Part shown: piece after piece, positions 11,913 to 17,032 of the stretch | Numbering within the stretch: position 1 is the stretch's first letter | Layout of the letters: every line of letters begins with the position of its first letter | DNA from: Candidatus Bathyarchaeota archaeon | GTDB lineage: Archaea > Thermoproteota > Bathyarchaeia > Bathyarchaeales > Bathycorpusculaceae | Direction: 5' to 3' | Assembly (NCBI GenBank): GCA_026014545.1 | Contig: JAOZIH010000005.1 | Location: forward strand, 1 to 64,000 | DNA length: 64,000 bases | The notes under the pieces: generated by a model | The model's input: the letters and a program-made list of their open reading frames with translations, nothing else | Databases searched by the model: none | Told to the model about the DNA's origin: nothing | Program-made: the position numbers and the translations under genes

Positions 11913-13407
<1,495 letters not shown>

Positions 13408-13855: not shown

Positions 13856-16069
13856 TTGTCGAGTCTTCCGCATCGTGCACGTGGAGTTAAAGTTCTGAAA
13901 GCCGTTTCGTCACCTCTTAGACTGCAGATTCTAAACTTGCTTTTCGATAAAAGCGCCCTCTCCTATACGGAATTAATGAATGCTTTGAAAATGAACCCTA
14001 GCAGAGATGCAGGGAAATTCGCGTACCACTTGAAGTTTTTGCTCAAGGCGGACTTGGTTGAGGCGAATGCGGAAGCCAAAAAGTACTATTTAACTGAACT
14101 GGGCAAAATGGTTCTTGACATAGCTGACAAAGTGGAAAAAAAAGCCGTCAAGCCCCGCGGAATGTTGGTTCGCACATCGCATTTCACGCTGGAAGAATTT
14201 GACGCTAACAAAATTGCTAACTCGCTTATACGGGAAGCAATGGTTCCGCCTGAAATTGCGCAGAAAGCAGCCAAAGAGGCGGAAAAGCGGCTTTTCAAGT
14301 CGAAAATTAAGTATTTGACTGCACCTTTGGTCAGGGAAGTTGTAAATGCCATTTTAATCGAGAAGGGCTTTGAGGATTATCGCCATAAACTCACGAGGCT
14401 AGGCATGCCTGTTTATGAAGTAAGCGCCTTACTGGACATAAAAGAAACTGGTGGCGGTTCATCCGCTATGCTCTCGAGGGCAGGAGATGCTGTGTTCAGG
14501 GAATATACGCTTTTGAACGTTTTCCCCCGAGACATCGCGGATGCGCATGTGGCGGGTGCAATTCACGTAAACGACTTAGGCACATGGATTTTGAAGCCAA
14601 ACGAAGTAATGCATGACTTGCGATTTTTCTTTCAAAATGGCTTCAGAACGACGAGCCCCTTTCAAATCTCGCATGGTGCACCTCAAAATTTTGAGGCTAC
14701 GTTATCTGTTGCCTTTAATGTTCTTGTGCATACTAGCAAGGAAGTAAACGCAGCACAGACTTGCGATTACTTCAACGTGTTTCTCGCTCCATTCATAAGA
14801 GGGATAGACCCTAAGCAAGTAAAAGAAAAACTCCGAATATTCCTACTAAACGTTCACCATCACGCGGAAACCGCGCTTGGGTTAACACCGGCAATTCCAA
14901 AATTTATTGCAGACAAACCCGCCATTGGCCCCGAAGGAAAAATATGCGGCAAGTACGGCGACTTCGGCGAAGAAAGTCTGTTGCTTGCATCGCTCATAAT
15001 TGAGGTTCTCGAAGAAGAAAGCTTGCCTAAACCTCTGCTTAACCCCAAGATTGTCATTAAGATAAACAGTGAGGCATTGGTGGACAAGCAAGCAAGAGAT
15101 GTGCTTCTAAAGGCACACAGGTTAGCCGCAGCGAGAGGGCTACTTTACTTTGCAAGCATGCTGCAAAAAGAAGTGAAATACGCTGTTTTTTCTGCTTCAG
15201 GGATTAATCTCAAAGCAGATTTGACTGGCGACTGGGAAACAGATACTCTGCGAACAGGCTGCCTCGGCGCTGTAACTATTAATTTGCCGCGGATTGCCTA
15301 TGAAAGTGGGAAAGATAAGAACAAGTTTTTTGAAATCTTGAAGGAAAGATGCGAATTAGCTGCGCGTGCATTAAGAGTCAAACATGCGGCGCTTAAGCAG
15401 CATGGGAAAAACTCCTTGCCCTTTATGATGCAAAGTTCCAACGGCGACACTTATTTCAGGCTTGAGAATTGTTCGCGCCTAATAAATTTCGCTGGACTAC
15501 GGGAATCGGTGGAAATTTTCTGCGAGAAAGATTTAAGTAATGAAGAAGCTGGCAAGTTTTCAGAGGAAGTCATCAAGAATGTTTTGGCTTTCAAGCAAAA
15601 ATTTAGCAAAAAGTATGGAAAACGCTTGTTCCCCATAATGCTTAGTAGTCCCGAAGCCTCTGAAAGGCTTGCGCAGCTGGACATCGAAAAGTACGGTGTT
15701 GCCAAGGTGAAGTTCTCAGGAACACGTGAGAAACCTTTCTACTCAACCACTAAGCGGCTGAATTTGGCTGTTGACAATTTCCCGTATATTCCCATGGAAG
15801 CTTTGGAGGTTGAGCAGAAGCTTAAAGGTTTTGACGCTGGAGGAACACTGCATGTTATAGAGATGGCAAATAACGATTGCAAACCTGAAGAGCTCATGCA
15901 GTTAACTGAGCATCTAATTAAGAATCAAGGCTTAGAATTCTTCACCTACAACCGCATAAGCACATACTGCGATAACTGCAGAAAAAGCTGGATAGGCTTG
16001 CTACACAAGTGCCCCTCATGCGGCTCCATAAGCACGCTGACAACCTTTAACAGATTTGCCTTCACTTGA
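13856..16069 (+). CDS. ArsR-like HTH / ATP-cone / class III ribonucleotide reductase-like protein lacking the glycyl-radical motif
   Basis: Three parts are visible. Residues about 8-85 form a winged HTH (SSPLRLQILNLLFDKSALSY, then KFAYHLKFLLKADLVEA). Residues about 105-195 form an ATP-cone (FDANKIANSLIREAMVPPEI). The remainder is an NrdD-like alpha/beta barrel with a Cys in TGCLGAVTINLPRIA (about residues 468-482) that matches the thiyl-radical loop. The C-terminal zinc ribbon is present (CDNC and CPSC, about 707-725), but the protein stops ten or so residues later in FNRFAFT, where NrdD normally has R-x-x-G-Y with the radical glycine. There is no nrdG next to it. The TTG start has a GAGGGA site upstream. 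It may be an inactive, nucleotide-sensing regulator rather than a reductase; this is inference. Confidence 0.85.
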   Translation: MSSLPHRARGVKVLKAVSSPLRLQILNLLFDKSALSYTELMNALKMNPSRDAGKFAYHLKFLLKADLVEANAEAKKYYLTELGKMVLDIADKVEKKAVKPRGMLVRTSHFTLEEFDANKIANSLIREAMVPPEIAQKAAKEAEKRLFKSKIKYLTAPLVREVVNAILIEKGFEDYRHKLTRLGMPVYEVSALLDIKETGGGSSAMLSRAGDAVFREYTLLNVFPRDIADAHVAGAIHVNDLGTWILKPNEVMHDLRFFFQNGFRTTSPFQISHGAPQNFEATLSVAFNVLVHTSKEVNAAQTCDYFNVFLAPFIRGIDPKQVKEKLRIFLLNVHHHAETALGLTPAIPKFIADKPAIGPEGKICGKYGDFGEESLLLASLIIEVLEEESLPKPLLNPKIVIKINSEALVDKQARDVLLKAHRLAAARGLLYFASMLQKEVKYAVFSASGINLKADLTGDWETDTLRTGCLGAVTINLPRIAYESGKDKNKFFEILKERCELAARALRVKHAALKQHGKNSLPFMMQSSNGDTYFRLENCSRLINFAGLRESVEIFCEKDLSNEEAGKFSEEVIKNVLAFKQKFSKKYGKRLFPIMLSSPEASERLAQLDIEKYGVAKVKFSGTREKPFYSTTKRLNLAVDNFPYIPMEALEVEQKLKGFDAGGTLHVIEMANNDCKPEELMQLTEHLIKNQGLEFFTYNRISTYCDNCRKSWIGLLHKCPSCGSISTLTTFNRFAFT

Positions 16070-16078
16070 AGCTGAAGC

Positions 16079-17032
<954 letters not shown>

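Follow-up and report, generated by a model that had tools for sequence, protein, structure and literature searches.

Among the known systems closest to this locus is NrdR (TIGR00244), a repressor of ribonucleotide reductase (RNR) genes of 140-220 aa, in which an N-terminal Zn-ribbon with an RRRR motif is joined to an ATP-cone and whose genes lie beside RNR genes. The ATP-cone of NrdR reads ATP/dATP and sets the oligomer state and DNA binding of the protein (PMC9110341). The window (the whole stretch of 64,000 nucleotides of Candidatus Bathyarchaeota DNA that was analysed) encodes a protein that likewise has a DNA-binding unit and an ATP-cone. Association with RNR genes was found at loci elsewhere in the family, but not at the window locus. 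Unlike NrdR, the protein begins with an ArsR-type winged helix-turn-helix (HTH), has a variant cone (VRTS) and a whole, apparently dead NrdD barrel, and is about 740 aa long; TIGR00244 was not among the families found in it. With the class III reductase NrdD (PF13597, TIGR02487) it has the fold, the ATP-cone and the Cys4 ribbon in common, but it lacks the thiyl Cys, the glycyl-radical Gly and the NxN and TPAE motifs, carries the additional HTH, and scores 251 bits on the NrdD equivalog model TIGR02487, below the cut-off of 326.35, whereas active NrdD neighbours score 485-532 bits. The winged helix is common to ArsR/SmtB regulators (PF01022), but here an ATP-cone and a reductase body are attached to it, and it does not form a small stand-alone metal sensor. 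The protein is a member of neither NrdR nor functional NrdD, and is NrdR-like in architecture and context. No published description of this architecture was found in the open-access full texts searched. Likewise, the open-access literature yielded no description of the control of dNTP supply in archaea without NrdR, for which the protein offers a concrete candidate.

Domain organisation and predicted structure

The features of the locus are listed in Table 1. Four Pfam families matched the protein above their cut-offs: HTH_5/ArsR (E = 5e-7), DUF7347 (E = 8e-8), ATP-cone (E = 2e-6) and NRDD (E = 3e-67, profile positions 13-534 of 562). The two winged-HTH models gave 30.0 bits (PF01022) and 32.8 bits (DUF7347) against curated cut-offs of 22 and 27.6. 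These matches bear out the ArsR-like HTH, ATP-cone and NrdD-like barrel that a first-pass annotation had read from the sequence, and the zinc ribbon that it proposed was also recovered, with all four cysteines invariant in 91 relatives. An AlphaFold2 model built from the 91 relatives (mean pLDDT 90, pTM 0.80) had class III reductases as its best Foldseek matches (Streptococcus thermophilus 9dca, E = 4e-27; T4 NrdD 1hk8, TMt 0.75). The cone matched NrdR more weakly, as did the HTH CadC and HlyU (over about 90 columns).

Table 1 Features of the locus (window coordinates)
Feature	Position	Strand	Basis
HTH + ATP-cone + inactive NrdD-like protein, 737 aa, TTG start	13856..16069	+	intact open frame, Pfam, relatives
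ArsR/DUF7347-type winged HTH, residues ~8-90	13877..14125	+	Pfam HTH_5 and DUF7347; Foldseek CadC, HlyU
ATP-cone, residues ~104-190, VRTS variant of usual KRxG motif	14165..14425	+	Pfam ATP-cone; identity
Class III reductase (NrdD) barrel, residues ~206-690	14471..15925	+	Pfam NRDD; AlphaFold2 model, Foldseek
Ile450 at thiyl-radical Cys position of active NrdD	15203..15205	+	alignment
Cys469 of TGCLGAV, not the thiyl Cys	15260..15262	+	alignment
Cys4 zinc ribbon C705, C708, C719, C722	15968..16021	+	invariant in relatives
C-terminus TFNRFAFT; Phe736 at glycyl-radical position, no tail	16043..16066	+	alignment
pyrB (aspartate carbamoyltransferase), convergent conserved neighbour	16079..17029	-	62-locus cluster; Pfam OTCace on cluster member

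The annotation had also noticed that the frame stops (FNRFAFT) where R-x-x-G-Y should be. Full-length relatives with 60-85% identity were found in 11 other Bathyarchaeia MAGs, and all of them end at the same position, after F-D/N-R-F-x-x-T or a close variant. Because these relatives stop at the same place, sequencing error does not account for the short C-terminus, and a frameshift or a missing tail was ruled out. Family-model matches were present in 234 of 257 Bathyarchaeia-class genomes (threshold 1e-20; in some, such as those of families f25 and f27, the matches are active NrdDs only) and in 233 of 398 genomes sampled within the window's own phylum (1e-40), and were absent from the f36 and f42 genomes. 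The HTH protein occurs, full length and strongly constrained, in most Bathyarchaeia genomes and many other Thermoproteota. This conservation refutes a decaying pseudogene or an assembly error, which the missing tail and a frame-broken copy in one relative (L124, G515) might have indicated and to which we give practically no weight.

Immediately upstream of the open frame is a complete gene for archaeal 16S rRNA (11913-13407, minus strand; Rfam RF01959, 1490 bits), and the ORFs listed inside it are spurious.

Catalytic residues and pattern of conservation

From one set of genomes we took 121 HTH-bearing relatives and 29 active-type NrdDs, aligned them and scored six positions, namely the thiyl Cys, the radical Gly, the two Asn of NxN, and the Pro and Glu of TPAE, the catalytic status of which we take to be established. 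Alignments with the solved structures of Thermotoga maritima and Prevotella copri NrdD place the CCR/GCR and RxxGY motifs at corresponding sites. All six positions were kept in 28 of the 29 active-type archaeal NrdDs, and none of the 121 HTH proteins had more than three. In the window protein, the column of the thiyl Cys (the second Cys of MCCR or QCC(R/A)) is occupied by Ile450 and that of the radical Gly by Phe736, with no tail following. The first-pass annotation had placed the thiyl Cys in TGCLGAV; this site was rejected, as the two active NrdDs encoded in this genome have the Ser of TGSIGVV in the column of Cys469. A Cys occupies this column in 32 of the 91 relatives.

At the C-terminal column, whose inspection across archaeal homologues had been suggested, the RxxGY motif occurs in none of the 121 HTH proteins aligned with active NrdDs, and a Gly stands in 14 of them. 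Several families keep the tail with the Gly replaced by Ala or Ser (RSSAKY, RSSATY), and the window's family (f1) has lost it entirely. The thiyl-column Cys is present in ten HTH proteins and absent from 111, and the sister sequences of the ten do not consistently have it. That the protein might still be a reductase or another glycyl-radical-type enzyme, with its radical supplied in trans by a YfiD-like protein or by another residue, would agree with the retained fold and with these scattered Cys and Gly residues, both of which occur together in two proteins. However, the NxN and TPAE motifs are gone together with the thiyl Cys, neither Cys nor Gly is consistently common to sister sequences, and 17 amoA-positive genomes retain the protein without any active NrdD; we consider such an activity, which the annotation had also entertained, very improbable.

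Some departures from the general pattern were observed. The two proteins with both residues (L106 and L110, family f10; KYAGRL and RYSGRP) lack the other motifs, and their sisters lack the Cys. In family f30 (L136, L137, L141, L160), the tail Gly is kept family-wide as (K/R)xxG(R/K), lacking an immediately following Tyr, and a thiolase-type gene lies upstream. The relatives of family f35 (L129, L130, L131) are 615-718 aa long, end in GCDSLKFI and are without the zinc ribbon; pyrB is nearby and an HYPK-like UBA gene adjoins. An NrdD-type neighbour at L148 (7412-9454) keeps CCR and its frame stops before RxxGY, which may reflect a frameshift or a second dead paralogue.

Conservation is centred on the N-terminal part of the HTH proteins. 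Their mean pairwise identity was 64% for the ATP-cone, 50% for the HTH and 33% for the barrel, and the cone was more conserved than the barrel in all 7260 of 7260 pairs. The pattern is opposite among active-type NrdDs (MCCR type left out), in which the cone exceeded the barrel in 45 of 253 pairs. Such a distribution is as expected if DNA binding and sensing, and not catalysis, are what selection maintains. Within the cone, R106, S108 and R160 are invariant in the 91 relatives. In a tree computed by a quick method and containing some long branches, one branch with support of 100 separated the HTH proteins from the active-type NrdDs; the former are one clade with a single origin.

Gene neighbourhood

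We counted reductase genes at the 82 loci outside family f1 that had at least 1 kb of downstream sequence. At 33 of them the next gene downstream, in the same orientation, encodes a reductase; these counts do not represent phylogenetically independent events. The gene is the class III nrdD at 18 loci (gap of 173-579 bp) and the class II nrdJ at 15 (above the TIGR02504 cut-off in three examples); the 18 nrdDs are spread over several distinct NrdD clades in the tree. No adjacent reductase gene was found at the 37 loci of family f1 or in families f30 and f35.

All 17 amoA-positive genomes tested, which belong to three families, have the adjacent nrdJ. Each of them contains exactly one gene matching PF02867, and this gene is the neighbour of the putative regulator. 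No active NrdD was found in these 17 genomes, the PF13597 matches being the HTH protein and a few weak fragments, and no NrdR was found in them. Most Bathyarchaeia have the candidate regulator, and so do all the ammonia-oxidising archaea tested, where the sole reductase gene comes after it; it stays while the adjacent enzyme changes class. In one ammonia oxidiser (the L124 copy mentioned above), the regulator gene is broken, with an open frame of 509 aa and a reported in-frame TGA, and the nrdJ downstream is open.

The conserved adjacency could also suit a protein partner that binds active NrdD or NrdJ and tunes how it works or oligomerises, in which case the winged helix would make contacts with protein; the retained NrdD fold could pair with NrdD. 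However, the class of the neighbour (NrdD or NrdJ) differs between lineages, and the well-conserved HTH comes from a DNA-binding family. We therefore regard a protein partner as unlikely and favour a transcription regulator.

Seven ammonia oxidisers each have, at 0-1 mismatches, a single copy of a 25-bp element, ATGAARTTCATAGTANCGGTGTNAA, and this copy is always in the regulator-nrdJ gap (L126, L155, L157, L158, L159, L162 and L154). The element is partly palindromic, lies about 100 bp before the nrdJ start, and is a candidate operator that can alternatively be read as a micro-ORF (MKFIVxV). A search of the regulator-nrdD gaps of Bathyarchaeia found no clear motif common with the gaps of the ammonia oxidisers. 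Rfam detected only tRNA at the ammonia-oxidiser loci, and no riboswitch.

Downstream of the regulator gene in the window, pyrB lies 9 bp beyond the stop. A convergent pyrB is linked at 62 loci, in many of them 1-20 bp apart and sometimes beyond nrdD. This linkage could point to a regulator mainly of pyrimidine synthesis (pyrB/pyrI) and not of the reductase. However, the convergent orientation provides no shared promoter, nrdD sits between the regulator gene and pyrB in several relatives, and in the ammonia oxidisers the linked gene is nrdJ and pyrB is not close by; we judge pyrimidine synthesis to be a distinctly improbable main target. The arrangement suggests an ancestral order of regulator, nrdD and convergent pyrB, from which nrdD would have been lost at this spot in f1.

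Proposed regulation of reductase genes

The loss of the catalytic motifs, the single origin, the selection centred on HTH and cone, and the adjacency to two classes of reductase, together with the domains themselves, lead us to consider it likely that the 737-aa protein is a nucleotide-sensing transcription regulator of RNR genes, derived from a class III reductase that is catalytically dead. The first-pass annotation had raised this possibility, and the sequence comparisons support it. In such a regulator we infer DNA binding, the ligand, the target and the sign of regulation. By analogy with NrdR, we propose that the protein binds DNA upstream of nrd genes in a way that depends on nucleotides. 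The ArsR-type winged helix, to judge from its fold, would bind DNA, the ATP-cone and possibly also the barrel's former dNTP specificity site would read the ATP/dATP or dNTP state, and the barrel with the zinc ribbon would form a dimerising, ligand-responsive body. Nucleotide binding would alter assembly, hence DNA affinity, and hence transcription of the downstream reductase gene, which would be nrdD in many Bathyarchaeia and nrdJ in ammonia oxidisers. Since VRTS replaces the KRxG motif of the cone, nucleotide binding is not assured. The family would be a clear example of an enzyme that has become the likely regulator of the pathway to which it belonged.

More tentatively, and with somewhat less than an even chance of being right, an ancestral class III reductase may have become a transcriptional sensor of dNTPs that serves reductase genes whatever their class, in which the cone reads ATP/dATP and the old specificity site the other dNTPs. 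This single-origin, widespread archaeal family might then provide the main control of RNR genes in Thermoproteota without NrdR, including the ammonia oxidisers.

The genome of the window contains other reductases, as the annotation had advised checking: two complete NrdDs (contigs C32 and C33) and an NrdJ-type gene. The remark that no nrdG is near holds locally, but is misleading, as C33, a contig other than that of the window, carries a complete nrdR-nrdD-nrdG cluster with NrdR upstream and NrdG beside nrdD. With two NrdDs, NrdG, NrdR and an NrdJ-type gene of its own, the genome does not need the 737-aa protein as an enzyme. The presence of an NrdR beside nrdD speaks against the regulator reading, and so does the lack of an adjacent reductase gene in families f1, f30 and f35. 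As the nrdD carried by relatives before pyrB is missing in this lineage, control of the genome's nrdD and nrdJ genes by the regulator would be in trans, possibly alongside NrdR; this trans action is the weakest link of the proposal for the window itself. The NrdJ-type gene (G000, contig C21, 26998-29490) has an open frame of 1062 aa, and its first match extends across some 2 kb of DNA to cover 347 profile positions, which an intein or another insert may explain.
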